A stretch of 44,267 nt of DNA from a virus, in IMG/VR virus record IMGVR_UViG_3300032224_000241, positions 1-44,267 of that record; one strand, written 5' to 3'. A model generated the notes under the pieces. It did no database searches, had not been told where the DNA came from, and saw only the letters and a program-made list of their open reading frames with translations. This document shows positions 24,929 to 44,267 of the stretch, piece after piece. Both the position numbers and the translations under genes were made by a program. How positions within the stretch are numbered: position 1 is the first letter of the stretch; every line of letters starts with the position of its first letter.

Positions 24929-25309
24929 GAAGGGACTGGCACGGCTGAGTTTTTAGAATCCCCGAGGGGCAAAACTCAAAAGTGAAAAATCAGTGGTCAG
25001 GGATAAAACTCTGGTGAACTTAGGAAGTCATTAAATCCCTAGGGAACTTCTTAAGGTGACAGAAAGATTATTACCTGATAATTACATAGCGAAGCCAAGA
25101 AGTTGTTAAGTTAGATTCTAGAATCGGCTAGACCTACTACGGTGCGACGCCCGAGGATAACCTGATTGACATGTTACGCGATGACTACTTATTAGCAGAT
25201 ATGTATAGCGATTACTGACCTCTATCAATTACGCAACGCACCGAGTTCTAGATACAACGACGATTGGCGATATATCGAAAGTGCTGTCGCTCTAAATTAT
25301 TAAGGCGAA

Positions 25310-25376
25310 ACACACAAGTAATTATGAGTTGCTTGTGTGTCTTGTGTTATCAGACACAACTGACGAGCCTCGTCAG
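25310..25376 (+). promoter_or_regulatory. Three tandem hairpins in the early leader
   Basis: Hairpin 1 is ACACACAAG (25310-25318) with CTTGTGTGT (25332-25340). Hairpin 2 is TTGTGT (25342-25347) with ACACAA (25354-25359). Hairpin 3 is CTGACGA (25360-25366) with TCGTCAG (25370-25376). They end six bases before the GAAGGGTAA site of the first early gene. Hairpin 3 and its flank recur at 26253-26289. Confidence 0.75.
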
Positions 25377-25396
25377 CGACACGAAGGGTAATAAAT

Positions 25397-25771
25397 ATGA
25401 ATACAACAATCGATATCCGTGACATCAAGTTCAACCAAGTAATAACAGTTGAACTAAAAAATGGCCAATTCATTACCGGTCATTTTCGTGGCAAAAGTAA
25501 AATCGTGAATAACGATTGCGAAATCACTGACCGCAAAGTTATTAACTTAGCAGCAACAACTGTTGATTCAAAACAACCTGAAGCATCAATTCTTGAAAAC
25601 TTTGCTATCAACTGTTCACAAGTTGTTAGATATTCAGTGAACGAAGAATATGCTGACAAAGTCAAGAAGGCTATGTGGCAACGATCATTAGATCAAGTTG
25701 CTGATTCATTAAACAAAATTGACTGGTCAAAACTTGACGAGTCATTGATAACAAAAGAGGTGGAAGCATAA
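25397..25771 (+). CDS. First early protein, possible Sm-like barrel
   Basis: The 124-residue protein is not recognised with certainty. Residues 12-46 read NQVITVELKNGQFITGHFRGK..VNNDCE, and the pattern of strands and LKNG turn recalls the Sm1 motif of LSm/Hfq-type RNA-binding barrels. The second motif is weak (SQVVRYSV near 73-80). The C-terminal 40 residues are helical and charged. It is the first gene after the structured leader and has the GAAGGGTAA site. An RNA-binding role would fit the structured RNAs around it, but this rests on pattern only. Stop overlaps the next start (TAATG). Confidence 0.65.
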   Translation: MNTTIDIRDIKFNQVITVELKNGQFITGHFRGKSKIVNNDCEITDRKVINLAATTVDSKQPEASILENFAINCSQVVRYSVNEEYADKVKKAMWQRSLDQVADSLNKIDWSKLDESLITKEVEA

Positions 25772-25950
25772 TGAAAACTTACGAAGTAGTTTATCAAGTC
25801 AAAGCAGTTATCACTGCTAACAGTAAAGAAAGAGCAACTGCCGAAGTTAGTCATGCGTTCTGGGACGCAGATCGCGGTATGGCAAATTTCGCTGTCTATG
25901 AAGTTGAAGAAAAATCAATGAAAATAACAGAAAGGGAACTTAGTCTATGA
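25771..25950 (+). CDS. Small early protein of unknown function
   Basis: The 59-residue protein (MKTYEVVYQVKAVITANSKERATAEV...) has a strand-helix-strand look similar to the small ferredoxin-like or dodecin-like early proteins of phages. It is coupled on both sides, starting at TAATG and ending at ATGA. The codon use matches its neighbours. Function unknown. Confidence 0.7.
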   Translation: MKTYEVVYQVKAVITANSKERATAEVSHAFWDADRGMANFAVYEVEEKSMKITERELSL

Positions 25951-26201
25951 CTACTTCAACACAATTGATTAAATGGCGTGGCAATCCGCAACGCAACAAA
26001 CAGTCTGACCGGCAATGCTATGACTGCGGTTATTTCTTTACAACCAAAGTTGATTTGATGTTGCATGCCGATTTTCACCGAGGCGAACGAGTTGTTCGTG
26101 AAACTGCTTGCATCTGTGGTGAAATGTACGATGTCCGTATGGGTAATTGCACCTACTGTAATCGTGTTCATTCTGCTGGCTGGACATTAGATTCTAACTA
26201 A
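25947..26201 (+). CDS. Classical C2H2 zinc finger plus zinc ribbon protein
   Basis: The 84-residue protein contains a canonical C2H2 finger, C24-x2-C27-x12-H40-x3-H44, with the hydrophobic positions of TFIIIA-type fingers. A zinc ribbon of C55-x-C57 and C68-x2-C71 follows. Such fingers are uncommon in bacteria but occur in phage and Ros-like regulators. It probably binds nucleic acid. It begins in an ATGA overlap with the previous gene. A structured intergenic region follows. Confidence 0.75.
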   Translation: MTTSTQLIKWRGNPQRNKQSDRQCYDCGYFFTTKVDLMLHADFHRGERVVRETACICGEMYDVRMGNCTYCNRVHSAGWTLDSN

Positions 26202-26212
26202 TTTATGGCGAA

Positions 26213-26289
26213 ACCGTGCTTCCGTCAGCACGGTCTATCGGTAAATGCCGGTACTGACGAGCCAATCGTTAGAAAAACATGAAGGGTAA
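26213..26289 (+). promoter_or_regulatory. Second early leader: hairpins plus GAAGGGTAA
   Basis: An 8-bp perfect hairpin ACCGTGCT (26213-26220) pairs with AGCACGGT (26227-26234). CTGACGA (26254-26260) can pair with TCGTTAG (26266-26272). The block ACTGACGAGCC...CGT-AG...GAAGGGTAA (26253-26289) copies 25359-25391 of the first leader, with a G-T pair and a longer loop in place of the perfect stem. This suggests a maintained RNA structure ahead of two early units. Confidence 0.65.
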
Positions 26290-26292
26290 ATC

Positions 26293-26745
26293 ATGACAAC
26301 AGAAACACAATATAACGAACCAACAGTAGAAGCAATTGCTGAGGAATTCGTTAAAGATAACACTACCTCTGAGATAGTAAAAGAGTTAGTTAAGTACAGC
26401 AATTCAGTTGATTCATTACGAAGCAACCTTGAATATGAAAGAAATCGCAATACAGCCTTGGCTAATAAATTAGATATAGTCAAGAATTTCATCACCGAGC
26501 ATGTTAAAGATGACGAACCTGCTTCTGTTGATGAACTGAAAGAACTAGCAGCCGAACTTGACTTCACTCTAACTAAACGAGTCACAGTTGAATTCACAGT
26601 CACATACAACTTGACTATTGAATGTGATTTAGATGAAGAAGTTACCGATAATGACTTCCGCGTTAATATGGATTACAACGGAGTTGGTGAAGTGTATGAC
26701 GAAAACGAAGACTGGTCTGAAATCACGATTGAAGACGAGGATTAA
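26293..26745 (+). CDS. Acidic coiled-coil early protein
   Basis: The 150-residue acidic protein has a helical N-terminal part, a likely coiled coil (SLRSNLEYERNRNTALANKLDIVKNF near 48-73), then a beta-type region (KRVTVEFTVTYNLTIECDLDEE) and an acidic end. I do not recognise the family; similar coil-plus-strand proteins occur in actinophage early regions. GAAGGGTAAATC precedes the ATG. Next gene follows after two bases. Confidence 0.65.
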   Translation: MTTETQYNEPTVEAIAEEFVKDNTTSEIVKELVKYSNSVDSLRSNLEYERNRNTALANKLDIVKNFITEHVKDDEPASVDELKELAAELDFTLTKRVTVEFTVTYNLTIECDLDEEVTDNDFRVNMDYNGVGEVYDENEDWSEITIEDED

Positions 26746-26747
26746 TT

Positions 26748-26966
26748 ATGAGTCCCGTATTTGTTTTCAATAAAGACTGGTTAATTTGTTATTGTGGCAA
26801 CGAACCACACATGTCAGGTTTCTATGCCTGCAATAAAGACGGAAATAAACAACACGACGAATTGGGTAGCCCGACTGATGATTGGTCGGGCACTCATTAT
26901 TACTGCGCTGATTGTGCGTTAGTAATCAATATGAAAAAGAAAACTACTAGAAGGGTAAGCGCATGA
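26748..26966 (+). CDS. Small zinc-binding early protein
   Basis: The 72-residue protein has cysteines in C14-x-C16 (CYCGNEPHMSGFYAC) and later C53-x2-C56 (YYCADC), with His residues nearby (PHM, THY). This suggests one zinc site. The C-terminus is basic (KKKTTRRVSA). It overlaps the next start by four bases. Function unknown; a nucleic-acid-binding or host-takeover role is plausible. Confidence 0.65.
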   Translation: MSPVFVFNKDWLICYCGNEPHMSGFYACNKDGNKQHDELGSPTDDWSGTHYYCADCALVINMKKKTTRRVSA

Positions 26967-27169
26967 AATCAATCAAACACTCTATAAAGTTAGAAACTTT
27001 ATTAGATGAAAACAGTGAAGTAGGTATGCAGATGTTGGCACTACCTGCTGCGACTAGAAACGCAATGCTCAATCAAATGGTCAATGACCTGCTAGTTCCA
27101 AGAATCGAGCCAATTCTTGAAGAACTAAATCAACATGGCTCTTATGCAATACTAAAAGTGAGGCAATAA
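26963..27169 (+). CDS. Small helical early protein
   Basis: The 68-residue protein (MKSIKHSIKLETLLDENSEVGMQMLALP...) is all helix in appearance, with LPAATRNAMLNQMVNDLLVP in the middle. It has no recognised domain. The GAAGGGTAAGCGC element precedes the ATG, and the stop overlaps the next start (TAATG). Confidence 0.62.
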   Translation: MKSIKHSIKLETLLDENSEVGMQMLALPAATRNAMLNQMVNDLLVPRIEPILEELNQHGSYAILKVRQ

Positions 27170-27432
27170 TGTTAAATACAGAAACAGATAGTTATGTAGT
27201 TCTATCTCCTGGTGGCCATTATCACGATTGGGCTACTAAATGCACAATGATCAAATCAAACCAATATGCTGTTATGCGGTTTTCTGCATATACAAAATGG
27301 TTCAACACGGCACGATGGGCTAAATCAAATAAAGAAATAGCACTAGCACTACCGGCACCAGCATTCGTTGGCGATACTTACGCAATTGCGCAAGATATGG
27401 CTGACGAGTTAAACCAACCAATGAAAGGGTAA
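27169..27432 (+). CDS. Early protein of unknown function
   Basis: The 87-residue protein has a mixed pattern (YVVLSPGGHYHDWATKCTMIKSNQYAVMRFSAYTKWF) rich in aromatic residues, with a C-terminal helix. The strand-rich first half could be a small barrel. It starts at a TAATG overlap and its stop is only four bases from the next ATG. No family is recognised. Confidence 0.62.
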   Translation: MLNTETDSYVVLSPGGHYHDWATKCTMIKSNQYAVMRFSAYTKWFNTARWAKSNKEIALALPAPAFVGDTYAIAQDMADELNQPMKG

Positions 27433-27436
27433 ATAA

Positions 27437-28423
27437 ATGGCACATAACATAGAAGAATTCGCAGACGGAAGTTCTGCGTTCTTTTCAGCAAGGGAAGTTG
27501 CTTGGCACAAACTAGGCACAATAACTCCTGACGCATTGACAGCAAAAGATGCGTTGAAAACTGCACAATTAGATTGGGTAGTCAAAGTGACTGAACAACC
27601 TATTTACAGCAAAGTTGATGACAAAACAATGCAACTCGATGACAAGTATCTAACATATCGTGATCACCCAAAGACAGGATTATCTGCTTTAGGTGTTGTC
27701 GGTAATCGTTATACACCTATTCAAAACTTAGAGGCATTTGATTTCTTGAATCATATAGCCGACGAGTCAGGTGCTTCATTTGAAACTGCTGGTTCGCTGA
27801 ATGGTGGCGCACGAGTATTCATGACTATGAAATTCCCCGAGTCAATGAAGTTAGCAAGCGGTCAAGATGTAATTGATAATTACATCATGGCTGTTAATAG
27901 TCATGACGGCTCATCTTCTTTCACCGTAGCCGTAACACCCATTCGTGCTGTATGTACTAATACAGTTCGCTTAGCACTTAATTCAGCCGTATCAAAACTT
28001 TCGTTGAAGCATACTGCTGGTGCTAGTGCCAAAGTTCAACAAGCACGCGAAACTCTAGGTATTGTGTTTAAGTATCAAGAGGAATTCGAGAAAGAAGTTG
28101 AACGCTTACTATCTGAGAAGTTCACAGATACGCAATACAAGAAGTTCGTTGAGGCACTTATTCCAGAGCCAAAAGACGATTCAACAACACGCAAAGAAAA
28201 TTCAGTCGAGAAGGTTCGCTCTGAATTGATGGGATTGTGGAAAGCGCCTACGCAAGCCATAGTAGCAAATACTAAGTGGGCTGCTTACAATGCTGTTGTC
28301 GAATACTCTGACTGGGTCAAACCAGTTCGTGGTGGCGAAGATAAGCAAGAACTTCGTGCTGAAAAAATCATTCTAGGCAATAGTGAGAAGTTGAAGCAGA
28401 AAGCACAACTTCTTCTAGCCTAG
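27437..28423 (+). CDS. DUF932 / phage-plasmid-like protein
   Basis: The 328-residue protein matches DUF932 (the phage/plasmid-like family TIGR03299). It opens ADGSSAFFSAREVAWHKLG near 9-27 and has YRDHPKTGLSALGVVGNRYTPIQN near 73-96, the internal FTVAVTPIRAVCTNTVRLAL near 161-180 and a long C-terminal helical part. It is widespread in phages and plasmids and of unknown function, with a suspected role in DNA metabolism or host defence evasion. GAAAGGGTAAATAA precedes the ATG, the longest match to the loop complement of the late hairpin (12 bases). Confidence 0.9.
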   Translation: MAHNIEEFADGSSAFFSAREVAWHKLGTITPDALTAKDALKTAQLDWVVKVTEQPIYSKVDDKTMQLDDKYLTYRDHPKTGLSALGVVGNRYTPIQNLEAFDFLNHIADESGASFETAGSLNGGARVFMTMKFPESMKLASGQDVIDNYIMAVNSHDGSSSFTVAVTPIRAVCTNTVRLALNSAVSKLSLKHTAGASAKVQQARETLGIVFKYQEEFEKEVERLLSEKFTDTQYKKFVEALIPEPKDDSTTRKENSVEKVRSELMGLWKAPTQAIVANTKWAAYNAVVEYSDWVKPVRGGEDKQELRAEKIILGNSEKLKQKAQLLLA

Positions 28424-28451
28424 TTGCTAATCCTGTTTGTTTAACAATTCC

Positions 28452-28591
28452 TGTGCGCCTCTTATAGTGATTCATTTATGCGGTCTAACCCTTTACCCGA
28501 CCCAATAATGAAAACCGCTCTAATAGGCGCACAAGGCTTCTAAATGAACGGCGAAAACTGACCGCGAGCCTGACTTGATTAGGCAGGGTCA
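28452..28591 (+). ncRNA. Candidate structured RNA with pseudoknot pairing
   Basis: Helix A is TGTGCGCCT (28452-28460) with AGGCGCACA (28525-28533). Helix B is TTCATTTA (28471-28478) with TAAATGAA (28541-28548) and crosses helix A as a pseudoknot or alternative fold. Helix C is GCGGT (28480-28484) with ACCGC (28514-28518), or alternatively ACCGC at 28561-28565. Helix D is TGACC (28559-28563) with GGTCA (28587-28591) around GCCT/AGGC. The loop of C contains TTTACCC (28492-28498), complementary to GGGTAAA of early ribosome sites. No gene fits here. Confidence 0.6.
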
Positions 28592-28602
28592 AACTGTAAA
28601 AT
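28575..28602 (+). promoter_or_regulatory. Candidate internal early promoter
   Basis: TTGATT (28575-28580) and TAAAAT (28597-28602) are spaced by 16 bases, the same spacing as the first early promoter. It lies at the end of the structured intergenic region. A small hairpin ATGAAG (28608-28613) with CTTCAT (28623-28628) follows, then the gene at 28648. Confidence 0.4.
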
Positions 28603-28647
28603 AAGACATGAAGTCAAAGTGGCTTCATAAATTAACGGAAGGTATAT

Positions 28648-28827
28648 ATGGCGAAGGCAACAAAACTAAACGGCTCATCACGCAATCTATGTGATGGTTC
28701 ATTACAAGAATCACCATACGAAGCAGGAACTAAAAATGCTTGCATAGTTTGCGGACGAATGACTACTACAAAACGCGAAGGTGTACAGCGTCGTCATACT
28801 GCTAAAAAAATAAAACAGGAAGCATAA
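28648..28827 (+). CDS. Small basic cysteine protein
   Basis: The 59-residue basic protein (MAKATKLNGSSRNLCDGSL...) has C15 and a pair C32-x2-C35 (ACIVCGR) in a context like a half zinc ribbon. It ends KKIKQEA. It is preceded by ACGGAAGGTATAT, a variant of the early ribosome element lacking one G. Such small basic zinc-ribbon proteins are frequent in actinophage early regions. Function unknown. Confidence 0.65.
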   Translation: MAKATKLNGSSRNLCDGSLQESPYEAGTKNACIVCGRMTTTKREGVQRRHTAKKIKQEA

Positions 28828-28851
28828 CAAACTAACGGAAGGGTAATAAAA

Positions 28852-29091
28852 ATGCTGTTTATGATCGGTTCATTCATTGTTAGTGGCTTAGTCGGCACAC
28901 TAATAGCGCTACGCCTTATGGCTATTGATGCACAAGAACATGGAACTAAATTAACTGTTCGTGGTCGCATAGTTGTAGGGGTTGCTATCGGATTAGGAAT
29001 TGCTTTATTCATAGTCCTAGTCAATGGCATGTGGTGGGATTGCACTATTTACGATAGTGGTTCTGCCTGTCATTTCACTTGGGGGTATTAA
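28852..29091 (+). CDS. Two-pass small membrane protein
   Basis: The 79-residue protein has two hydrophobic segments (MLFMIGSFIVSGLVGTLIALRL and GRIVVGVAIGLGIALFIVLV) joined by a short basic loop. The tail has two cysteines (DCTIYDSGSAC). It is an early membrane protein, perhaps for superinfection exclusion or membrane modification; nothing in it decides this. It has the GAAGGGTAATAAAA site. Its stop overlaps the next start (TAATG). Confidence 0.65.
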   Translation: MLFMIGSFIVSGLVGTLIALRLMAIDAQEHGTKLTVRGRIVVGVAIGLGIALFIVLVNGMWWDCTIYDSGSACHFTWGY

Positions 29092-29750
29092 TGCAAACAT
29101 TCATGCCTGATAGTGATTTCAAAGGAGTTGCTAAGTCGCTTGATAATAAGCGACTTGGCAAACAAAGAGTTGAGGCTTATCAAATACTCAATGCTTTAAC
29201 TGGCAAATCAAAAGGTTGGATTCATCACCCTGCTACAAGAATGTGGCGTGGTTATGAATGGCAACTTGCTAATTACGGCCATGAAATATGCCGGGAATGG
29301 ATTGCTAGAGGATTTCAAGATTCTTTAGCGCCAGACTTTTGGAACTTCATGGAACAAAACACGCCATGTCATAAACCTTGGTGGGTTAATAATCGCGCAT
29401 TACAACTTACACACCAATCTAATTTGTTAAGAAAAGATTGGACTTACTACTCTAAATACTTCCGAGTACCTGATGACCTACCTTACATATGGCCATTAGA
29501 TGACGAGCAAGCATTTTGGTGTGGTGACCTACGAGAAAGGAATGGAACTGAATTGCTACCAAACGGAATAGTGTATTTGACTTCAAAACAGGTGGCTGAG
29601 TTATTAGGTGTATCACCTAAAACTATTAGTGCTTACAAAGCGCGTGGTCAAATGCCCGAGCCTGACCGTGAATACGGCAGGACACCATTGTGGAAACATT
29701 CCACGATTCAAGAGTGGCGCAAAGATTTACGCACTCCAATTATCAAATAA
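29091..29750 (+). CDS. MSMEG_6728-like protein fused to MerR-type HTH
   Basis: Residues 1-125 match MSMEG_6728-family proteins, which I recall as pyrimidine-dimer-glycosylase related. The match covers MQTFMPDSDF, SLDNKRLGKQRVEAYQIL near 16-33, HHPATRMWRGYEWQLANYG near 45-63 and CREWIARGF. Residues 160-210 add an excisionase/MerR-type HTH (LTSKQVAELLGVSPKTIS near 163-180 and PLWKHSTIQEW). The N-terminal part would act on DNA and the HTH would recruit it. ATG 29091 at a TAATG overlap is preferred over the in-frame TTG at 29079. This fusion is unusual to my knowledge. Confidence 0.72.
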   Translation: MQTFMPDSDFKGVAKSLDNKRLGKQRVEAYQILNALTGKSKGWIHHPATRMWRGYEWQLANYGHEICREWIARGFQDSLAPDFWNFMEQNTPCHKPWWVNNRALQLTHQSNLLRKDWTYYSKYFRVPDDLPYIWPLDDEQAFWCGDLRERNGTELLPNGIVYLTSKQVAELLGVSPKTISAYKARGQMPEPDREYGRTPLWKHSTIQEWRKDLRTPIIK

Positions 29751-29764
29751 CGGAAGGAAGGGTA

Positions 29765-29944
29765 ATGAAACCAATTCATGTATATAAGTTAGCGGTATAT
29801 CTGAAAGATGATGCCGAAGACTTGAATGCTGAAGAAATACAAGAAGCAATAAAAACTGAACTTGATGGCACTTATTATTTAAGTGTATTTGAAGTTGAGT
29901 GGCAAGGCGTAATTAGAACAGATGCGATCAGCCATGAAGAATAG
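29765..29944 (+). CDS. Small acidic early protein
   Basis: The 59-residue acidic protein (MKPIHVYKLAVYLKDDAEDLNAEEIQ...) has a beta-alpha-beta appearance with a Glu-rich helix. ATG 29765 is decided by the element GAAGGGTAATG whose last A is the start codon A; an in-frame upstream ATG at 29690 lies in the previous gene and lacks a site. Function unknown. Confidence 0.68.
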   Translation: MKPIHVYKLAVYLKDDAEDLNAEEIQEAIKTELDGTYYLSVFEVEWQGVIRTDAISHEE

Positions 29945-30062
29945 ACCTGATTGGTTAAATATCATGGAAAAAATCGCTACCGAAAAACTTGCAGAAGTCC
30001 TGCAAGAAATAGAAGAAGAAGGGGAAGGCAATAATGAGTACATCACTAGCAATAACGAATGA
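29934..30062 (+). CDS. Tiny coupled ORF before RecT
   Basis: The 42-residue frame (MKNRPDWLNIMEKIATEKL...) overlaps the previous gene by 11 bases and the RecT gene by 29. It is helical and acidic (EEEGEG). It has no ribosome site, so expression would depend on coupling. The GAAGGGGAAGGCA in its end is the RecT ribosome site. Moderate doubt remains. Confidence 0.45.
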   Translation: MKNRPDWLNIMEKIATEKLAEVLQEIEEEGEGNNEYITSNNE

Positions 30063-30813
30063 TCAAACCTATTGGTCACCACAACAACTATCAGCGTTGA
30101 AATCATTAGGATTGTCGCAAGCCGATTCAGGTGATTTAGCGTTCTTTTTTCACCAAGCACAACGGACTGGGTTAGATCCATTTGCTCGTCAGATTTATAT
30201 GATAAATCGTGGCGGAAGATGGGGCATTCAAACCAGTATTGATGGCTTTCGTATTATCGCTCAACGAAGTGGTCAATATGCTGGACAGACTGCGCCTTAT
30301 TGGTGCGGAGATGATGGTGTTTGGAAAGATGTATGGCTTTCTAATACGCCACCAGTAGCAGCAAAAATCGGTGTTTATCGTCAAAACTTTGCTGAGGCAA
30401 CTTGGGCAGTTGCTCGTTGGGAATCTTATGCTGTATTGAATAATCCAATATGGAAAAAGATGCCCGATGTTATGTTGGCAAAGTGTGCTGAATCATTAGC
30501 ACTACGCAAGGCTTTTCCTAATGATTTGTCAGGTATTTACACTGATGAAGAAATGAGCCAAGTTGATGTGTCGGTAGAAGATAAAGTCAAACCCAAGAAG
30601 GTTGATTTACAGATACCGGCAAAAGAGCCAATAGATACAACTGGTGTTGATTGGGAATCATTAGCCCAAGCAATAGAAAACCTATCCGACAAAGACGCAG
30701 TCAAAAGAATGTGGAATGCTCGGAAAGAAATGCTTGACGCAGTTATCCCCGACAGTAATCCCCCTACTACCCTGCGTGAAGTGCTGATACAGAAAGTTGC
30801 CGCACTAGCATAA
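30034..30813 (+). CDS. bet: RecT/Bet-family single-strand annealing protein
   Basis: The 259-residue protein matches phage Bet/RecT recombinases in its N-terminal 180 residues: FFHQAQRTGLDPFARQIYM near 38-56, GGRWGIQTSIDGFRIIAQRSGQYAG near 60-84, and the C-terminal core PDVMLAKCAESLALRKAFPNDLSGIYTDEEM near 144-174. It anneals single strands during phage recombination and repair. The C-terminal 80 residues are acidic and low-complexity. Partners in the same unit are a Cas4/RecB-like nuclease (32885), SSB (36491) and RusA (35229). Confidence 0.92.
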   Translation: MSTSLAITNDQTYWSPQQLSALKSLGLSQADSGDLAFFFHQAQRTGLDPFARQIYMINRGGRWGIQTSIDGFRIIAQRSGQYAGQTAPYWCGDDGVWKDVWLSNTPPVAAKIGVYRQNFAEATWAVARWESYAVLNNPIWKKMPDVMLAKCAESLALRKAFPNDLSGIYTDEEMSQVDVSVEDKVKPKKVDLQIPAKEPIDTTGVDWESLAQAIENLSDKDAVKRMWNARKEMLDAVIPDSNPPTTLREVLIQKVAALA

Positions 30814-30977
30814 TGACAAGAATAATCAATCCATTAGTGGCTGACTACATGGTCAAGTCATCTAAAAAATTATTCAATGCGGCAACTAGTGGTGACCCTG
30901 AATTAGCAGAGGCAACTTTGCTTAATATCAGGGCATCAATTGACAGTTATATCCTAGCCATAAAAGATGAAGGGTAA
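30813..30977 (+). CDS. Small helical protein after RecT
   Basis: The 54-residue protein (MTRIINPLVADYMVKSSKKLFNAATSGD...) is helical with a TPR-like short core (DPELAEATLLNIRASIDSYI). It starts in a TAATG overlap with RecT and ends in the GAAGGGTAA of the next gene, whose TAA is its stop. Unknown function; coupling to RecT suggests a recombination accessory. Confidence 0.65.
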   Translation: MTRIINPLVADYMVKSSKKLFNAATSGDPELAEATLLNIRASIDSYILAIKDEG

Positions 30978-30979
30978 TC

Positions 30980-31552
30980 ATGAAACTTATGGAAGATAAA
31001 TGCTTTTGGTGCGGAACTCGCATCACAAGACCAAGCAATAATATGTTATGGGTATGTGACTATGAATCTACACATTGTGAAGATCACCCAGTCGCATACA
31101 ATTTGATGGACTTGACTAAGACTGACGAGTGGGCGCCTCATCAGTCTAGGAAAGATGTATTTCAAATAATAAGACAAAATCATTACATCACTAAAGCGCA
31201 ACGAAGCGGTAAATACATACGCGGAATTGACGATAATGTTGTGATGATTAGCAACAAAGCAAGAAGCACTAGTCGTAAGTCTGCGGAAAAGGTATTACCA
31301 AATACCGGCACTATACGCAGACTGGTTTATGACACGATTGCTGCTAACAATGATAAAGGATATACCGATTACGAATTAGAAACGGTATTAAAGGGCAGTC
31401 ATCAAACAATATCAGCAAGTAGGCGCACATTAGTTTTGGACGGCTTCTTGATTGATTCAGGCAAGACACGCATAAATCAAAACGGAAACGATTGTATTGT
31501 GTGGATCACTGCTGATGAGTTTAGCAACGGAATGCTGTTTGCTAATGTCTAA
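30980..31552 (+). CDS. Zinc-finger plus winged-helix protein
   Basis: The 190-residue protein has an N-terminal zinc site (C8-x2-C11, then CDYESTHCEDH near 26-36). A C-terminal winged helix occupies residues 109-175 (TGTIRRLVYDTIAANNDKGYTDYELETVLKGSHQTISASRRTL to GFLIDSG). The winged helix is common in actinophage early genes. It is probably a DNA-binding regulator or replication accessory. It uses the GAAGGGTAATC site. It overlaps the next start by eight bases. Confidence 0.72.
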   Translation: MKLMEDKCFWCGTRITRPSNNMLWVCDYESTHCEDHPVAYNLMDLTKTDEWAPHQSRKDVFQIIRQNHYITKAQRSGKYIRGIDDNVVMISNKARSTSRKSAEKVLPNTGTIRRLVYDTIAANNDKGYTDYELETVLKGSHQTISASRRTLVLDGFLIDSGKTRINQNGNDCIVWITADEFSNGMLFANV

Positions 31553-31721
31553 AGAATACTCATGGAAAGATGGGTGGGCATTAAGTTATCCTCACCCATT
31601 ACCTGAGCCACCTAAACAAATACAACGCGAAACGATTTTTCGTTGTTCTTGCACAGGTAATTATGTAGAAATAAACCGCGAGTGTTCGCTATGCGGTCAG
31701 ACTATGAAAGGAAGCGCATGA
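31545..31721 (+). CDS. Small zinc-ribbon early protein
   Basis: The 58-residue protein (MSKEYSWKDGWALSYPHPLPEPPKQI...) ends with a zinc ribbon of C-x-C and C-x2-C (FRCSCTGNY and RECSLCGQT). ATG 31545, inside the end of the previous gene, is chosen because upstream in-frame ATGs would give a Cys/Leu-rich extension. It ends in an ATGA overlap. Function unknown. Confidence 0.65.
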   Translation: MSKEYSWKDGWALSYPHPLPEPPKQIQRETIFRCSCTGNYVEINRECSLCGQTMKGSA

Positions 31722-32065
31722 CAATAACACCTGAAAAAGTAGAAACACGACTATACGAATTGAGCAAAGAAATTGATTCTGCTCATGACGAATTGGTCGC
31801 TGCTGAAAAGAAATATCACACCGATAAAGCAGTTTTTGAGATAGCGATTGCTAGATCAAGAATTCATATTGGTATGAATAATCAAAAACTTCGAGTAGGT
31901 GATATCGCAGATAAAGCATTACTAGAAGTTGAAAAAGAATGGGTTGATTTACAAACTGCAGAAGCGTTAGTTAAAGCCGCAAGAGGTAATGCTGCTCGCG
32001 TAAGAACTCAAGTAGATATCGCTCGTTCAATCGGAACGAGTGTTCGTGCCTCTTTAGAGGTATAG
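31718..32065 (+). CDS. Coiled-coil early protein
   Basis: The 115-residue protein is almost entirely helical with a heptad-like pattern (VETRLYELSKEIDSAHDELVAAEKKY near 9-34 and LEVEKEWVDLQTAEALVKAARGNAARV near 69-95). It resembles small phage proteins of unknown role that bind RecT or SSB partners. ATG 31718 is supported by AAAGGAAGCGC and the ATGA overlap with the previous gene. Confidence 0.7.
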   Translation: MTITPEKVETRLYELSKEIDSAHDELVAAEKKYHTDKAVFEIAIARSRIHIGMNNQKLRVGDIADKALLEVEKEWVDLQTAEALVKAARGNAARVRTQVDIARSIGTSVRASLEV

Positions 32066-32083
32066 TAGATAAGGAAGGGTAAA

Positions 32084-32632
32084 ATGAGAAAAAAAATAAC
32101 AATATCAATAGTGATATTCGCGCTAGTTTTTTTGGCGTTGAATGTTGCTAACGCGAGGGCAGATGTTTATGTCAAGGTAGATGCTAGCGGTAATGCTATC
32201 GGTGGCGCAATCATGTGTGATGCTGGAACTTGTGCTGCTGGTTCATTATATTCAGAATCAACATTACAACCAGGCGAGCAATATGTTTTGCAAGGGACTG
32301 GTTTTGCGGGTATTGGAAATAACAATCCAAATACACAAGTAACAGTTGATCTACAAACAAATGTTTGGACTATAAACAGTCAAGCACAGGTAATTATGCC
32401 TGACACATTTGAACCAGTTTTAATACAATCTGTTCAAACATTTACACCCGAAACTAATCCTTGGAATCCTGCACCTGTTATTGCAGAACCTATATTTATT
32501 AATCCACAAGATGTTCTTATGACAACTTTAAGTGTTCAAACATTTAATGTAGTTATGGCAACAAAAAGCGGAATAAAAATTACTAAAAAAGAAAATGCTA
32601 AAGTGTTAATCAGAAAGAAGGGTAAAAAATGA
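32084..32632 (+). CDS. Secreted or surface early protein
   Basis: The 182-residue protein has a clean signal peptide (MRKKITISIVIFALVFLALN) with probable cleavage after ANARA at residue 26. The mature part is beta-rich with a Cys pair (MCDAGTCAAG near 44-53), and the end is basic (RKKGKK). Export of an early protein suggests a role at the cell envelope such as superinfection exclusion. No family recognised. It has the GAAGGGTAAAATG site and a four-base overlap with the next gene. Confidence 0.7.
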   Translation: MRKKITISIVIFALVFLALNVANARADVYVKVDASGNAIGGAIMCDAGTCAAGSLYSESTLQPGEQYVLQGTGFAGIGNNNPNTQVTVDLQTNVWTINSQAQVIMPDTFEPVLIQSVQTFTPETNPWNPAPVIAEPIFINPQDVLMTTLSVQTFNVVMATKSGIKITKKENAKVLIRKKGKK

Positions 32633-32904
32633 AAGTAAAAGAACTAAAAGAAGTCATCAAAGATATGCTTGATGATGATATTTTGTTTGTTGCTTTATTT
32701 GATAAAGACGAAGCCGACGAACATGCAATGAATAACTTAAATGACGCAAAAGATTTTAAGTTCTCAGAATATGATTGGTCAGATATTGTTGATAAAATGA
32801 ATAATGATGAAGGTATCTGGCAAGAAATTATGGGTTCATGGAGATACTTTATTGAGTTAGAGTTCAACAAAATCAAGAAGGGTAATGATGACAATAGTCA
32901 ATGA
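32629..32904 (+). CDS. Small acidic early protein
   Basis: The 91-residue acidic protein (MKVKELKEVIKDMLDDDILFVALFDKDEADEH) has helix-strand-helix character. The N-terminal half resembles the short DUF6225-like phage proteins of unknown role, a weak call. It has the GAAGGGTAAAAA site. Its 3' end contains the ribosome site and start codons of the Cas4-like gene and overlaps it by 20 bases. Confidence 0.65.
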   Translation: MKVKELKEVIKDMLDDDILFVALFDKDEADEHAMNNLNDAKDFKFSEYDWSDIVDKMNNDEGIWQEIMGSWRYFIELEFNKIKKGNDDNSQ

Positions 32905-37003: not shown

Positions 37004-37183
37004 ATGAGTGAAGGCGACAGTATTATTGATTCCGAAGTGGCTGCAATGATGCTTGGGGTGAGTCCTGATGCATTACGCATGCTGGTATATAGAAAAAAAT
37101 TAGTGCCAGTAGGAAGGCAAAAGCGAAGAAGCCGATTCCTTCTCGCTGATGTTCTGGCACTACAAACACGCCGAAGCAGGTAG
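37004..37183 (+). CDS. MerR/excisionase-type HTH regulator
   Basis: The 59-residue protein reads IIDSEVAAMMLGVSPDALRMLVYRKKLVPVGRQKRRSRFLLADVLAL, the full winged HTH of the excisionase/MerR-like class. ATG 37004 follows GGGGGATTG. It is the last early gene, directly upstream of the late promoter-like sequence, so it is a good candidate for a late-unit regulator or for controlling its own boundary. No integrase is present to make it an excisionase. Confidence 0.78.
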   Translation: MSEGDSIIDSEVAAMMLGVSPDALRMLVYRKKLVPVGRQKRRSRFLLADVLALQTRRSR

Positions 37184-37207: not shown

Positions 37208-37216
37208 TGTTATGCT
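37208..37216 (+). promoter_or_regulatory. Candidate late promoter, extended -10
   Basis: TGTTATGCT reads as an extended -10 (TG-n-TATGCT). It is close to the early TGTTATACT at 24920-24928. No good -35 was seen. Transcription would start near 37222-37224, precisely at the base of the large hairpin that follows. Confidence 0.5.
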
Positions 37217-37222
37217 TCCTGT

Positions 37223-37288
37223 CAATGGGTGAGGTCTATCTGAAATCTGTTATTTACCCTTCCAGAAATTAGATAGCCTCGCCTGTTG
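37223..37288 (+). ncRNA. Late-leader hairpin with loop complementary to early ribosome sites
   Basis: Bases 37223-37234 pair with 37277-37288, 37236-37241 with 37271-37276, 37242-37243 with 37269-37270 and 37246-37249 with 37263-37266. That is 24 pairs including four G-T wobbles, one bulged T and a 2x2 adenine internal loop. The terminal loop 37250-37262 is TTATTTACCCTTC, exactly the reverse complement of GAAGGGTAAATAA. It begins at the predicted late start site and lies in the leader of the ParB-like gene. It could act as an antisense RNA on early mRNAs, as a protein site, or as a leader regulator. Confidence 0.75.
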
Positions 37289-37303
37289 TAACGAAAGGCA
37301 AAC

Positions 37304-37945
37304 ATGGAAGCAATCAAAGTATCAGTTGATACCTTAAAAGAATTTCCCGGCAATCCGCGTAAAGGTAATGTTAAAAAACTAGCGGAATCATTGACGACTA
37401 ATGGTCAATACAAACCTATTGTCGTGCAAAAATCAACACAACAAATTCTTGCTGGTAATCATTTATGGAAAGCAGCAAAAGAATTAGGTTGGCAAGAAAT
37501 TAACATTGTTGAAATTGAAGTCAATGATGATCAAGCGAAAAAAATTGTTGCCGCAGATAATCGCTTAGGCGAATTAGGAACATACGACGAGCAAGCATTA
37601 TTAGATTTATTAGAAGAAATCAATTTAGAAGGAACTGGTTACGAACCAGCAGATGTTGATGATTTATTAGCATTCTTAGAAGAAAAAGTTGAAGTTGATT
37701 GGAAAACCGGCAACACTTTAGAGGGACAACAAGAAAATGTGCAGCGTCGCCCAACATTATCTGAAAGAGCAGAACATTACGCAGAACGCACAATTAGATT
37801 ATTGATGTGTGAATATCCAAACGCACAATATGTTTGGATAATTGAAAAACTGACAGCACTCAGAGAACAATATGGCGTCGAAAGCAACGCTGATGCAATT
37901 CTAAAACTGGTAGAACAAACAACAGGAGAAAACAGCCCATCATGA
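37304..37945 (+). CDS. ParB-like nuclease-domain protein
   Basis: The 213-residue protein has the ParB/sulfiredoxin-type N-terminal domain: the box LKEFPGNPRKGNVKKLAESL near 11-30, PIVVQ near 38-42, and ILAGNHLWKAAKELG near 48-62 with the G-N-H nucleotide-binding motif. The C-terminal part is helical. ParB-like proteins of this type often stand beside base-modification genes in phages and may act as CTP-dependent or nuclease-like partners. GAAAGGCAAAC precedes the ATG. It overlaps the dioxygenase by four bases. Confidence 0.85.
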   Translation: MEAIKVSVDTLKEFPGNPRKGNVKKLAESLTTNGQYKPIVVQKSTQQILAGNHLWKAAKELGWQEINIVEIEVNDDQAKKIVAADNRLGELGTYDEQALLDLLEEINLEGTGYEPADVDDLLAFLEEKVEVDWKTGNTLEGQQENVQRRPTLSERAEHYAERTIRLLMCEYPNAQYVWIIEKLTALREQYGVESNADAILKLVEQTTGENSPS

Positions 37946-38805
37946 TTGACTTAGAAGTAATTCCAGTCAAGCGAGTAATTTCAAGAGATCAATCAAAAGA
38001 AATCAAAGGCAATGATGTTCCTGATTTAGAAGCAAATGTTACTAAAGCAGGTATCTATGTTGATGCTGAAACTAATGAACCATTTTTAGTTTATTGTGAG
38101 ATGCCGGCAGATGCAGTTCCTAAATTGCGTCAAGCAGTGCGTAATGTTAAATACAGTTCATCAGGCGTGACTCGTCAATCAACTGGAACCGAAAATCATT
38201 CTCGTACATTCGGTATGGCACCACGCAAACCATTTCAAACTCGTGAAGCATGCAGACCTACTAGTCTTACATACGAACAACCCGAAGAACATGATGTGTT
38301 AGTTGAAACAGCAGATTTATTAGCAGACATGATGCGTGAATTTGCACCTGATATCTATGACAAAGATGTGCAAGAAACTGGCGCAGTCACAGATGAGTGG
38401 CGTATCAGCGAGCGCTCGCTATGGACTAGCGGAGTTATCAATAAAACTTCTACACTTCCATATCATTTCGATGGCAACAATTTTGATATGTGGTCTGCTA
38501 TGCCGGTAATACGCAGAGGCACTCGTGGTGGTTATTTATCTATGCCTGAATATGATTTGACTATTGAATGTCGCGATGGCTGGGTGTTATTTTTTCCAGG
38601 ATTTAGATATCTGCATGGCGTAACGCCAATTAAACATGTTGCTAAAGATTCTTACAGATACACAGTTGTTTATTATTGCTTGAAAGGCATGAAAGATTGT
38701 TTTACTTATGCAGTAGAACAGAAGGAAGCACGGAAGCGCAGAACTGATCGCGAAGTTGGATTAGCGTCAGCAGTCAAAGGTGATACCGCTTTCAAAATAA
38801 AATGA
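37942..38805 (+). CDS. TET/JBP-family 2OG dioxygenase for DNA base oxidation
   Basis: The 287-residue protein shows the TET/JBP pattern: H175-x-D177 (PYHFDGNN), GGYLSMPEYDLTIECRDGWVLFFPG near 196-220, distal His225 (LHGVTPI) and Arg239 (SYRYTVVYY). An N-terminal helper region carries NHSRTFGMAPRKPF near 85-98. These enzymes hydroxylate 5-methylcytosine or the methyl of thymine. It is encoded between a ParB-like gene and a glycosyltransferase with four-base overlaps, so it would produce hydroxymethyl base for glucosylation. No cytosine methyltransferase is in the window, so thymine is a possible substrate. Confidence 0.85.
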   Translation: MIDLEVIPVKRVISRDQSKEIKGNDVPDLEANVTKAGIYVDAETNEPFLVYCEMPADAVPKLRQAVRNVKYSSSGVTRQSTGTENHSRTFGMAPRKPFQTREACRPTSLTYEQPEEHDVLVETADLLADMMREFAPDIYDKDVQETGAVTDEWRISERSLWTSGVINKTSTLPYHFDGNNFDMWSAMPVIRRGTRGGYLSMPEYDLTIECRDGWVLFFPGFRYLHGVTPIKHVAKDSYRYTVVYYCLKGMKDCFTYAVEQKEARKRRTDREVGLASAVKGDTAFKIK

Positions 38806-39587
38806 AATACACTATTGCGATACCGTCTTATCGACGACCTGATATATTAAAAAATCAGACACTCGCAGTATTAGACAGACTTTCGGTTAATCGTGACAAC
38901 ATTGTTATATTTGTTGCCAACGAAGAAGAATACGAAACGTACAACACGGTACTCAATGGCGAGTATCAAATAGTTGTAGGTGTTCGTGGCATATCTAGTC
39001 AAAGAAAGTTTTATCATAACTGGTTTCCAGTCGGCGAACGCATTGTTAGCATTGATGACGACATGGCAGACCTATTAGAACTCGGCGACAAACAGTTAAT
39101 TCCTACGCAATATACGATAGATCAAATCGTTGAAATGGGATATAAATACGCAGAACTAGAAGGCGCAAAGATGTGGGGCATCAATCCCACAATGAATCAT
39201 TTCTTTCTTAAAAATCATGTGTCAGTAGGTTTGCGATATATTTGCGCGAACTTCATGGGAACATTCGCAGGTGATTGGATATTCACAGACCCTAATCGCC
39301 GCATGACACCAACAGGCGAAGACCATCACAGCACTCTTAGAGGCTTCACTCGTTATGGTTCAGTAGTTAGATTAGAATTCCTATGCCCCAAGACAAAGTA
39401 TTTTGCTACTGGCGGTATAGATGCTTGCGTTACAGAAGACGGAGCAAAGAGAGCGGATAGGCACGCTGAAGAATTAAGATGGGTTCAATCAAGATACCCT
39501 GATATATCTTCAATTCAAATCAAAGCAGGCGGAGTAGTCAATCTTCGCTTAAAGCCTATTACCTTCAATAAATACCCACGACCATAA
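38802..39587 (+). CDS. TET/JBP-associated GT-A glycosyltransferase
   Basis: The 261-residue protein has a GT-A type start YTIAIPSYRRPDILKNQTLAVL near 3-24 and the nucleotide-sugar/metal motif IDDDM (84-88). MWGINPTMNHFF and GEDHHSTLRGFTRYG lie later. It matches the TET/JBP-associated glycosyltransferases predicted to add sugar to oxidised bases in phage DNA. Its four-base overlap with the dioxygenase supports joint action. The sugar and base are not known. The terminase small gene follows after 11 bases. Confidence 0.82.
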   Translation: MKYTIAIPSYRRPDILKNQTLAVLDRLSVNRDNIVIFVANEEEYETYNTVLNGEYQIVVGVRGISSQRKFYHNWFPVGERIVSIDDDMADLLELGDKQLIPTQYTIDQIVEMGYKYAELEGAKMWGINPTMNHFFLKNHVSVGLRYICANFMGTFAGDWIFTDPNRRMTPTGEDHHSTLRGFTRYGSVVRLEFLCPKTKYFATGGIDACVTEDGAKRADRHAEELRWVQSRYPDISSIQIKAGGVVNLRLKPITFNKYPRP

Positions 39588-41804: not shown

Positions 41805-44267
41805 TTGTAACTGCGCAGATTGCTGCGAAAACATTGTAGTCGTTCGCGAACCAGTAACGACAATAGCAATAACTGGTGGTGGTCCAGCAGGTCCTCAAGG
41901 AACTACTGGCGCGCAAGGAACTCAAGGTATCCAAGGAACTGAAGGACTTCAAGGTATCCAAGGACTTGATGGCATTCAGGGTGCGCAAGGTGTTGATGGC
42001 TTACAAGGCTTGCAAGGAATTATTGGCGCACAGGGCGTTCAAGGAACTCAAGGATTAGATGGAGTTCAAGGCTCTACTGGTACTCAGGGAAATACTGGAA
42101 GCCAAGGAACTTTAGGCACACAAGGTGCGACAGGTACACAAGGTTTAATTGGAATCCAAGGTGTTGAAGGAATACAAGGAATCCAAGGCACAGACGGAAT
42201 CCAAGGAACGCAAGGCATTCAAGGAGATGGCACACAAGGAACTATTGGTGCGCAAGGTGAAACTGGTACTCAAGGCTTAATTGGCATTCAAGGTGAAATT
42301 GGAATCCAAGGAATTCAAGGTTTAGAAGGTTTACAAGGATTAGAAGGATTGCAGGGTGTACAAGGCACAGACGGCATCCAAGGTTTTGATGGCACACAAG
42401 GCACGCAAGGTTTAGAAGGATTACAAGGCGTTGAAGGTTTGCAAGGCATTCAAGGCACCGATGGTTTACAAGGTTTTGACGGAACCCAAGGAACACAAGG
42501 TTTAGAAGGCTTACAAGGTTTGCAAGGAGTTCAAGGAATTGAACCAGCCCAAGGCATCCAAGGTCTTATTGGTATTCAGGGAGAAACTGGATCACAAGGC
42601 TTAGATGGAATTCAAGGATTAGAAGGCGCACAAGGAACTCAGGGAATTCAAGGCCACGATGGAACACAAGGCATTGAGGGCTTGCAAGGACTTGAGGGCG
42701 CTCAGGGTGTCCAAGGAATTCAAGGACATGACGGAACTCAAGGACTTGAGGGATTACAAGGTTTAGAGGGTGCGCAGGGTACACAAGGCATTCAAGGCCA
42801 TGATGGAATTCAAGGTCTTACAGGCATTCAAGGCGAAACAGGTTCTCAAGGCTTAGATGGAATCCAAGGACATGATGGCACGCAAGGTATTAGCGGAATT
42901 CAGGGAACAACTGGTTCACAAGGTTTAGTTGGTATTCAAGGCGAGCAAGGACTTCAAGGAATTGATGGAACACAGGGTGTTCAAGGAATAATCGGTTCTC
43001 AAGGAACCCAAGGTTTAATTGGTATTCAAGGATTTGACGGTATTCAAGGAGTTCAAGGTAATACAGGTGCTAGTGGAACCTCATCTTCTATTTTTGATTA
43101 CCAAGCAAGAACTAACTCACAAACTCCACCACCTAATGCTGGCGACATTAAATGGAATAATGCAGTACAAATTCTTGCAACAAACATTTATGTATCTCAC
43201 TTAACAGCGCCAAATGTAGATATAGATGTTTTATTAGCAAACATAAAAAATGGCGACATCTTCTTTGTTCAAGATAGAAATAACTCTACTAATTATCAAG
43301 AATGGCAAGTAAACGGAACACCTACAACTGTTCCCAATGATTATTGGACTTATCCTGTAACACTTTTAACATCAAGTGGAACAGGTACAACAGGTTTTGC
43401 AAATGGTCACAATATTTCTCTTATTACACAAAGCGTTGGTGTTCAAGGCGTTACTGGTGCGCAAGGAACAAATGGCGCACAAGGAACTACTGGCGCGCAA
43501 GGGTTACAAGGGCTTCAAGGAATTTTTGGCATTCAAGGTGAAACAGGAACTCAAGGTTTAACTGGATCACAAGGAATTACTGGAACACAAGGTGCGACTG
43601 GAATTCAAGGACTTCAAGGTCTGCAAGGACATGATGGTAGCCAAGGTCTTGACGGAATTCAAGGCATAACTGGCGCACAAGGTTTAGACGGTATTCAGGG
43701 TCAGCGCGGATTACAAGGTGTTACAGGAACTCAAGGCGCTGAAGGATTACAAGGTACTCAAGGTTTACAAGGCCACGAAGGTATCCAAGGACAAATTGGA
43801 TTACAAGGTTTAACTGGCAGCCAAGGCACTCAGGGTTTACAAGGTGTTACAGGTAGCCAAGGTTTAGAAGGAATCCAAGGAACTCAAGGCGTACAAGGTT
43901 CTCGCGGCTTGCAAGGAATAACTGGTAGCCAAGGAACTATTGGTGAAACTGGTGCGCAAGGAACACAAGGTGTTACAGGTTCTCAAGGAACTAATGGATT
44001 AAATGGTTCTCAAGGAACTCAAGGTGCTCAAGGTAATCAAGGTCTAGTTGGTAGCCAAGGCACTAACGGATCAGACGGAAGCCAAGGAACTACTGGTAGT
44101 CAAGGATTAACTGGTAATCAAGGCTTAACAGGTTCGCAAGGTTTAATAGGTTCTCAAGGTTTGACTGGTAGCCAAGGATTAACTGGCATACAAGGAAACC
44201 AAGGAACAACAGGCTCTCAAGGATTAACTGGTTCGCAGGGTGCGCAAGGGGTTCAAGGATTACTTGG
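41797..44267 (+). CDS. Collagen-like tail fibre, N-terminal part (partial, continues at base 2)
   Basis: GTG 41797 starts a frame that stays open to the window end and continues in frame at bases 2-271, about 872 residues in total. The N-terminus SNCNCADCCENIVVV has five cysteines, unusual for a virion protein and possibly disulphide or metal linking. From about residue 22 the chain is a Gly-X-Gln repeat (QGTTGAQGTQGIQG), interrupted near bases 43081-43440 by a globular beta domain (DYQARTNSQTPPPNAGDIKW to FANGHNISLITQSVG). The collagen-type arms should form a long trimeric fibre with a knob in the middle. Gln in place of Pro implies hydrogen-bonded stabilisation. Confidence 0.85.
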   Translation, partial: MSNCNCADCCENIVVVREPVTTIAITGGGPAGPQGTTGAQGTQGIQGTEGLQGIQGLDGIQGAQGVDGLQGLQGIIGAQGVQGTQGLDGVQGSTGTQGNTGSQGTLGTQGATGTQGLIGIQGVEGIQGIQGTDGIQGTQGIQGDGTQGTIGAQGETGTQGLIGIQGEIGIQGIQGLEGLQGLEGLQGVQGTDGIQGFDGTQGTQGLEGLQGVEGLQGIQGTDGLQGFDGTQGTQGLEGLQGLQGVQGIEPAQGIQGLIGIQGETGSQGLDGIQGLEGAQGTQGIQGHDGTQGIEGLQGLEGAQGVQGIQGHDGTQGLEGLQGLEGAQGTQGIQGHDGIQGLTGIQGETGSQGLDGIQGHDGTQGISGIQGTTGSQGLVGIQGEQGLQGIDGTQGVQGIIGSQGTQGLIGIQGFDGIQGVQGNTGASGTSSSIFDYQARTNSQTPPPNAGDIKWNNAVQILATNIYVSHLTAPNVDIDVLLANIKNGDIFFVQDRNNSTNYQEWQVNGTPTTVPNDYWTYPVTLLTSSGTGTTGFANGHNISLITQSVGVQGVTGAQGTNGAQGTTGAQGLQGLQGIFGIQGETGTQGLTGSQGITGTQGATGIQGLQGLQGHDGSQGLDGIQGITGAQGLDGIQGQRGLQGVTGTQGAEGLQGTQGLQGHEGIQGQIGLQGLTGSQGTQGLQGVTGSQGLEGIQGTQGVQGSRGLQGITGSQGTIGETGAQGTQGVTGSQGTNGLNGSQGTQGAQGNQGLVGSQGTNGSDGSQGTTGSQGLTGNQGLTGSQGLIGSQGLTGSQGLTGIQGNQGTTGSQGLTGSQGAQGVQGLL
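41870..43077 (+). repeat. Collagen-like repeat tract, arm 1
   Basis: Nine-base units encoding Gly-X-Gln dominate this stretch, with many near-identical sub-repeats such as GGAATTCAAGG and GGTTTACAAGG. It is a coding repeat, not a CRISPR array, but it is a hotspot for slippage, recombination and assembly collapse. The second arm runs from about 43440 through the junction to base 210. Confidence 0.85.
44145..44267. repeat. Terminal direct repeat, right copy (contig closure)
   Basis: This is the second copy of the 123-base overlap described for bases 1-123. No mismatch was seen on reading both copies. Confidence 0.9.

Follow-up and report, generated by a model that had tools for sequence, protein, structure and literature searches.

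Ten early genes of this phage are preceded by a conserved start tag, GAAGGGTAA, whose exact reverse complement, UUACCCUUC, lies in the loop of a strong RNA hairpin encoded in the same genome (Table 1). The hairpin is kept in related phage records with compensatory changes in its stem, loop and tag change together from lineage to lineage, and hammerhead ribozymes precede many of the tags. We consider it probable, on the evidence of these sequences, that a phage small RNA or the leader of a late mRNA pairs with the ribosome-binding sites of the early genes and represses them.

The first-pass annotation had described an extended motif at ten early starts, and this description was borne out: nine carry GAAGGGTAA and one carries the AAAGGGTAA form, each before an early start. 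In the window, that is, the whole 44,267-nt stretch of DNA analysed here, there are nine copies of GAAGGGTAA on the + strand and a single one on the - strand (37254-37262), compared with a mean of 0.28 and a maximum of 1 in 100 shuffled sequences. At all ten tags an open frame of 59 aa or more starts with an ATG that lies -1 to 5 nt past the motif; as had been noticed, the last A of the tag is the A of the ATG in two cases (29765 and 32885), the ATG at 32888 being an equally good alternative to that at 32885. According to start lists compiled in this analysis, the tag is present at 10 of 28 early-side starts and at none of 36 late-side starts, which confirms the earlier impression that late starts lack a full copy. 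The tag is all-or-none: AAGGGTAA with at most one mismatch is found at chance level (35 observed versus 40.1 expected), and the remaining + strand copy of AAGGGTAA, at 19396, has no downstream start. The - strand copy, absent from the first-pass annotation, is the most informative of the copies.

The bacterial anti-Shine-Dalgarno tail pairs with AAGGG. The proposal that the motif exceeds normal anti-16S pairing is supported, as AAGG and one G-U are covered and GTAA is left unpaired when a general bacterial tail, which may differ from that of the host, is used. The hairpin (computed fold, z -6.1) lies in the interval that separates the replication genes from the terminase block. Its loop gives computed duplex energies of -13.4 to -17.0 kcal/mol at the ten tagged starts, compared with -7.3 to -12.0 kcal/mol for the bacterial anti-Shine-Dalgarno tail at the same starts; the means for the 36 late starts are -5.4 kcal/mol with the loop and -7.5 kcal/mol with that tail. 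A simple sigma-70 scan found no standard promoter at the hairpin, and no terminator was found 3' of it on the + strand. Rfam returned for the hairpin only sub-threshold matches, which we take as chance; one of these is potC RNA (15.5 bits against a gathering score of 44, E 3.5), whose consensus loop is also UUUACCC, a resemblance that may serve as a lead only.

Table 1. Start tags, anti-tag hairpin, neighbouring genes and hammerhead folds in the window
Feature	Position	Strand	Remark
Type II hammerhead fold	25303..25370	+	Descriptor match; 17 nt 5' of AAGGGTAA of the first tag
Start tag GAAGGGTAA	25383..25391	+	Precedes gene 25397-25771
Type II hammerhead ribozyme	26206..26267	+	Precedes second tag; Rfam RF02276 and descriptor
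Start tag	26281..26289	+	Precedes gene 26293-26745
Start tag	26950..26958	+	Precedes gene 26963-27169
Start tag, AAAGGGTAA form	27424..27432	+	Precedes DUF932 gene 27437-28423
Start tag	28838..28846	+	Precedes gene 28852-29091
Start tag	29757..29765	+	Final A is the A of ATG at 29765
Start tag	30969..30977	+	Precedes gene 30980-31552; TAA of tag is stop of upstream ORF
Start tag	32074..32082	+	Precedes gene 32084-32632
Start tag	32617..32625	+	Precedes gene 32629-32904
Start tag	32877..32885	+	Precedes PD-(D/E)XK/Cas4-like nuclease gene (start 32885 or 32888)
Small helix-turn-helix (HTH) gene	37004..37183	+	Directly 5' of hairpin in most of these phages
Extended -10-like element TGTTATGCT	37208..37216	+	Kept in most single-hairpin relatives; putative promoter
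RNA hairpin with anti-tag loop	37223..37288	+	Proposed regulator; fold, relatives, stem covariation
Hairpin loop UUAUUUACCCUUC	37250..37262	+	Includes UUACCCUUC, reverse complement of tag
ParB_N-domain gene	37304..37945	+	3' of hairpin; other genes there in other lineages

Among the related records, stem pairs changed on both sides number 8 of 12 in A4 and 8 of 16 in A3. In A3, G-U pairs exceed A-C pairs (46 versus 9), and the + strand is therefore the likely RNA; A4 has no G-U bias (4 versus 5). The gene 3' of the hairpin varies between lineages, several of which have two hairpins in tandem. Tag and loop covary as the pairs AAGGGTAA/UUACCC, AAGGACAG/CUGUCC, AAGGGATA/UAUCCC, AAGGGACA/UGUCCC and GTTAGGG/CCCUAAC, and a matrix of loops against tags falls into blocks in which each loop fits the tag of its own record. 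This covariation also appeared in a test independent of the motif, in which hammerheads located the start zones and each zone was fixed at 40 nt: over 21 loop sets the mean longest loop-zone match was 8.11 nt with own loops, against 6.06 nt when loops were swapped, a Shine-Dalgarno-like core common to loop and tag alone accounting for 4-6 nt of match. None of 20000 permutations, made at the level of records with relatedness ignored, reached the own-loop mean, and when each of six tag classes was represented by a single record, the true assignment came first of 720. The tag classes require 7 changes on the DUF932 tree, on which AAGGGATA with UAUCCC loops and AAGGGACA with UGUCCC loops each occupy separate places.

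The agreement has exceptions. For most of the starts tested in the AAGGGAGA class (G015, G019 and G040) the loop pairs over just 7 nt, and the loop of G056 matches its own starts less well (5.0) than other loops do on average (5.7). Where hairpins are in tandem, first loops that end in CCGUCCCUUC lack counterpart starts with AAGGGACG. Hammerheads and AAGGAGGC starts are present in G042, in which no hairpin with a matching loop was seen. Eight hairpin-bearing records (G050-G055, G058 and G059) yielded neither a hammerhead nor a clear tag class, perhaps because their early region is missing. The hairpin with GUUAUCCC in L037/G029, which lies in a fragment without the HTH gene, was left out.

The descriptor found 123 type II hammerheads on the + strand, none on the - strand and none in shuffled sequence, with 1-5 in each record having any. 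They show CUGANGA, GAAA, a UH cleavage site and three stems with stem II open; the copy before the first tag runs GAAA, stem III, UC, stem I, CUGACGA, stem II, and had no Rfam hammerhead match. The copy before the second tag scored 33.6 bits (E 0.0003) against RF02276, below the gathering score of 37, which was reached by no hammerhead copy searched. Core and stem order are the same as in known type II hammerheads (RF02276; PMC3088659). The same source already reports intergenic hammerheads in phages, one of them 13 nt 5' of a phage start, whereas here they recur immediately 5' of the tags.

The tag looks like an address for an antisense regulator overlaid on an ordinary Shine-Dalgarno sequence (AAGGG), to which the address would be joined. 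The hairpin RNA would be a small RNA, or else the leader at the 5' end of a late transcript, with an unpaired loop complementary to the address; once made, it would pair through its loop with the tags of all the early mRNAs and hide their ribosome sites, so that early genes are turned off and untagged late starts are spared. The sequences argue strongly for pairing of the hairpin with the tags in trans, and we infer that the hairpin is transcribed, that the effect is repression and that the timing is that of the early-to-late switch. The first-pass annotation had read the motif as a class-specific ribosome element; its early specificity and a difference in regulation between early and late mRNAs are retained, but an alternative ribosome-recognition element is not the best reading, because the additional conserved bases correspond to the phage hairpin loop and vary along with it.

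It is unlikely that regulation runs in the reverse direction, with hammerhead-trimmed early leaders binding the 5' hairpin of the late mRNA and altering its translation or stability. Complementarity and covariation would be equally expected, many tag copies face one hairpin, hammerheads would yield defined leaders and the -10-like element lies immediately before the hairpin base; however, the inconstant gene 3' of the hairpin speaks against a fixed target, for which ten tags over ribosome sites would also be unneeded. We think it quite improbable that GAAGGGTAA at the early genes and the inverted repeat at 37223-37288 are DNA operators of a phage protein. Although an HTH gene adjoins the hairpin in most lineages and Cluster A stoperators are repeated asymmetric sites, the tags lie a few nt 5' of ATG in a single orientation, the hairpin copy is invariably in the opposite orientation, and the stems covary, with G-U pairs on the + strand. 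A strong preference for ordinary Shine-Dalgarno sequences, or a specialised host anti-Shine-Dalgarno, with a coincidental hairpin match would explain the pairing of AAGGG and the core that most tag classes have in common, but the bases past AAGGG are unpaired with the general bacterial tail and vary among relatives in step with the loop, which makes it very improbable. Sites for a RegA-like protein, an RNA-binding translational repressor of phage, would lie over early starts only, as observed, but with an irrelevant hairpin they leave the complementary (not identical) and covarying loop unexplained and deserve very little credence.

The preferred reading, repression by a phage RNA, bears on the SAS/ESAS (Start-Associated Sequences) of Cluster K mycobacteriophages and Cluster EF Microbacterium phages. 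The reports (PMC3203893, PMC7302621) describe these as strongly conserved and oriented, in ribosome-site position a few nt 5' of ATG, with conservation beyond anti-Shine-Dalgarno pairing, as for our tag; in Cluster K they accompany non-structural genes only, which is similar to the early-side restriction found here. Their authors left the roles open, asking whether protein or RNA binds, and SAS, described in phages since 2011, have stood without a reported partner. Because the 13-bp consensus (GGGATAGGAGCCC or GGGAAAGGACCCC) is not matched by GAAGGGTAA and its lineage variants, the tag is SAS-like and not the Cluster K/EF sequence itself. One reverse SAS copy is reported in each of four Cluster K phages; that of Anaya falls in the loop of a hairpin that is similar to the anti-tag hairpin here and no more stable than shuffles (z -0.11). 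The DarthP anti-tag hairpin is imperfect, and none was found in TM4, AnnaSerena or SirPhilip. Our literature search, which covered listings and selected passages of mainly open-access papers, turned up no account of an RNA complementary to SAS. The hairpin, which the tagged genomes themselves carry and which covaries with the tag, is a candidate partner for start tags; it would suggest a purpose for the hammerheads of phages and provide matched addresses and loops with which translation could be controlled orthogonally. More tentatively, and at somewhat less than even confidence, one phage RNA may act as an addressable translational off-switch, in which hammerheads trim many of the early mRNAs and so expose the addresses, the late transcript carries the loop, and early translation ceases as late transcription begins. 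Address and loop would drift in concert, and unrelated mycobacteriophages might have arrived at this design independently, which would explain SAS.

The 6C/B11 small RNA of Actinobacteria, as described in PMC10470900, has two hairpins whose C-rich loops pair with ribosome-binding sites and repress. The phage hairpins likewise have C-rich loops complementary in sequence to ribosome sites, and the tandem pairs of several lineages resemble its two hairpins; in contrast to the host-encoded 6C/B11, the loop here corresponds to a special tag that recurs among the genes of the phage itself. Membership of the 6C family was rejected, no Rfam 6C match being found in the window or in nine hairpin loci. 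HTH and DUF932 profile searches of genome contigs found no relatives. The best 20 listed phage matches to DUF932 all come from phages of Actinobacteria, and our guess is therefore that the host is an actinobacterium.

A first-pass annotation had reported a shared word before ten early genes, and a count on both strands bore this out: GAAGGGTAA occurs nine times on the + strand of the window and once on the − strand, against a mean of 0.28 and a maximum of 1 in 100 shuffles. A tenth start carries AAAGGGTAA, and ATG directly follows this tag in all ten cases. The window takes in the whole of its virus record, G000 (44,267 bases). The claimed lack at late starts also held, as 10 of 28 early-side but 0 of 36 late-side starts in our own start lists are tagged. 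Allowing up to one mismatch brings no surplus of copies (35 versus 40.1 expected), so the tag is a fixed word rather than the peak of a gradient in Shine-Dalgarno strength.

The − strand copy is also kept in related phage records and, read on the + strand, forms the loop (UUAUUUACCCUUC) of a predicted RNA hairpin. The fold of 37215-37300 reaches −32.6 kcal/mol, compared with −15.8 ± 2.7 for shuffled sequences (z −6.1); among 12 regions treated in this way, z was −3.4 to −7.5 in 11 and −0.11 in the twelfth, that of phage Anaya. A search for hairpins whose loops complement start-zone words yielded such hairpins in further lineages, among them one with CCUGUCC to match AAGGACAG. In most records a small HTH gene lies immediately 5' of the hairpin (none was found beside it in G003, G004 and G013), and the gene 3' of it varies, being ParB-like (two kinds) or epimerase-like. 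Several lineages carry a tandem pair, the first hairpin overlapping the final HTH codons. A profile search with the HTH protein, of which the best 80 of 95 matching loci were taken, placed a C-rich-loop hairpin by an automated criterion in 50 of the 55 loci L111-L165, the loop sequence being spotted by eye in the other five, and in 1 of the 25 loci L166-L190, where the HTH protein is only 44-49% identical. A separate large hairpin 3' of the DUF932 gene resembles one at about 19732 in the related record G007.

Features of the window and their coordinates
Feature	Position	Strand	Remarks
GAAGGGTAA copies	25383-32885	+	all nine
AAAGGGTAA start	27424
GAAGGGTAA copy	37254-37262	−
Tag-complementary hairpin	37223-37288	+
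Match to Rfam potC RNA	37220-37291		sub-threshold, 15.5 bits; potC loop also UUUACCC
Hairpin 3' of DUF932 gene	28447-28535		loop UAACCCUUUACCCGACCC
Hammerhead	26206-26267		Rfam Hammerhead_II, 33.6 bits, E 0.0003, under gathering score 37
Type II hammerhead	25303-25370		noted alongside the 26206-26267 copy
TET/JBP-like oxygenase, adjoining weak TET-associated glycosyltransferase match	37942-39587
Collagen-like gene	~41820-44267		runs past record end

The stems covary in two alignments whose members were hand-chosen, mostly from a non-redundant list plus loci of a DUF932 scan. In the 18 second hairpins (A4), 94.8% of cells are paired, both sides change in 8 of 12 pairs and the covariation score is 0.505 versus 0.232 shuffled; the corresponding values for 15 single long hairpins (A3) are 84.9%, 8 of 16 pairs, and 0.438 versus 0.267. 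Sliding the partners gave scores of at most 0.252. The excess of G-U over A-C cells in A3 (46 versus 9) is what a + strand RNA should produce; A4 has no such bias (4 versus 5). When the strands of 56 distinct hairpins were compared, the better fold was that of the + strand in 41 cases and that of the − strand in 8.

The DUF932 protein scan yielded 43 loci. AAGGGTAA is enriched and placed upstream of starts where DUF932 identity is at least 59%, and more distant relatives have AAGGACAG, AAGGGATA, AAGGGACA, AAGGGAGA or AAGGGAAA at the same position. Loop and tag change together, as tabulated from 29 records hand-chosen among those with loops.

Tag words in records grouped by hairpin loop (start zone/all + strand)
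Loop	Word	Counts
UACCCUU	AAGGGTAA	G000 (the window) 10/11, G003 11/14, G007 6/7, G010 7/7, G012 5/5, G057 8/8, G062 6/6, G014 3/3
CUGUCC	AAGGACAG	G016 8/8, G033 7/7, G017 3/3, G034 3/3, G064 3/3
UAUCCC	AAGGGATA	G030 5/5, G038 5/5, G025 3/3
UGUCCC	AAGGGACA	G047 6/6, G049 6/6, G036 3/3, X131 1/1

In the start zones of records with another of these loops, each of the four words is mostly absent and is never counted more than twice. AAGGGTAA stands at 1/1 in G059, whose loop is AAACCC; G050, G054 and G056 have none of the four words, and the G056 loop does not fit its own starts (5 nt). The fit is only 7-9 nt in the AAGGGAGA class (G015, G019 and G040). The AAGGGAAA records (loop CCCUAAC) were considered as an exception and rejected, as their hammerhead-adjacent starts carry GTTAGGGA, with a loop fit of 7-8 nt. 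Mapping the six tag classes onto a tree of 45 DUF932 proteins takes 7 changes (AAGGGATA alone 3, AAGGGACA 2, AAGGGAGA 2), and the loop follows the tag in the records that include the hairpin, namely G030/G038 and G025 for AAGGGATA, and G036 and G047/G049 for AAGGGACA. Recombinational module exchange could lower the number of independent changes.

Many tags are preceded by a hammerhead, GGC-GAAA-[stem III]-UC-[stem I]-CUGAYGA-GCC, mostly 7-24 nt ahead and with 1-5 per hammerhead-bearing record; 2 of the 10 window tags have one. A purpose-written descriptor gave 123 matches on the + strand in records that include near-duplicates, none on the − strand and none in one shuffle per record. The word AAGG[AG]NNN lies within 45 nt of 107 of the 123, and 12 of the other 16 are of the GTTAGGGA class. 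G042, the record behind locus L050, has hammerheads ahead of AAGGAGGC starts, with no HTH gene and no hairpin with a matching loop found; this is perhaps an older state. When start zones were set by hammerheads, leaving the tag unused, 29 records with both elements gave 21 distinct loop sets, in which the longest exact loop-zone match averaged 8.11 nt for own loops versus 6.06 ± 0.27 (maximum 7.34) for swapped loops; none of 20,000 record-level permutations, which retain kinship, reached the own-loop value. With one hand-chosen record for each of six classes, the true assignment ranked best of 720 (51.5; runner-up 49.0). The loops of G016, G020, G023, G033, G036 and G047 were re-entered with closing bases from printed hairpins.

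At the ten tagged starts, duplexes with the loop have energies of −13.4 to −17.0 kcal/mol, versus −7.3 to −12.0 kcal/mol with an actinobacterial anti-Shine-Dalgarno tail, which may not be the host's; the means over 36 late starts are −5.4 with the loop and −7.5 kcal/mol with the same tail. At tagged starts the loop could therefore have the advantage over the ribosome, which on average it would lack at other starts; −9 kcal/mol or lower with the loop also occurs at untagged early starts and at 6 of the 36 late starts. By inference, the hairpin would be expressed, its loop would pair in vivo with tagged early starts and displace the ribosome, and early genes would be repressed at the early-to-late switch. 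A conserved TGTTAYRCT element, which a simple promoter scan did not pick up, precedes the hairpin in most single-hairpin lineages, and its placement would put the 5' end of the late transcript at the hairpin base.

The closest known tags are the Start-Associated Sequences (SAS) of Cluster K and EF phages (PMC3203893, PMC7302621). The Cluster K authors left open whether the SAS binder is RNA or protein, and described four phages that each have a single reverse copy. The reverse copy of Anaya (JF704106), at 59870, lies in a hairpin loop with one mismatch to the reverse complement. In the Cluster K comparison, this loop is kept in six of eight aligned phages, is absent from SirPhilip and is imperfect in DarthP (NC_051607; CTCCTTCCCC), though the SAS tag there is unchanged; no anti-SAS hairpin was found in TM4 or AnnaSerena. 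BLAST matches to this part of the Anaya genome came from 130 phage records, in some of which the loop was read. The C-rich loops of the mycobacterial 6C/B11 small RNA act on ribosome sites, according to PMC10470900, which is the mode of action proposed for the phage hairpin. Kinship with 6C/B11 was rejected by Rfam. The tag is classed here as SAS-like and the hairpin as 6C/B11-like in its proposed working, and neither is a member of the known kind.

The hairpin has SSB/HTH genes on its upstream side and ParB-like, TET/JBP-like, glycosyltransferase-like and terminase genes on the other. The TET/JBP-like oxygenase and the adjoining glycosyltransferase match suggest DNA base hypermodification. 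At the end of the window, a long gene of collagen-like G-X-Y repeats (GIQG and GTQG units) was read by eye.
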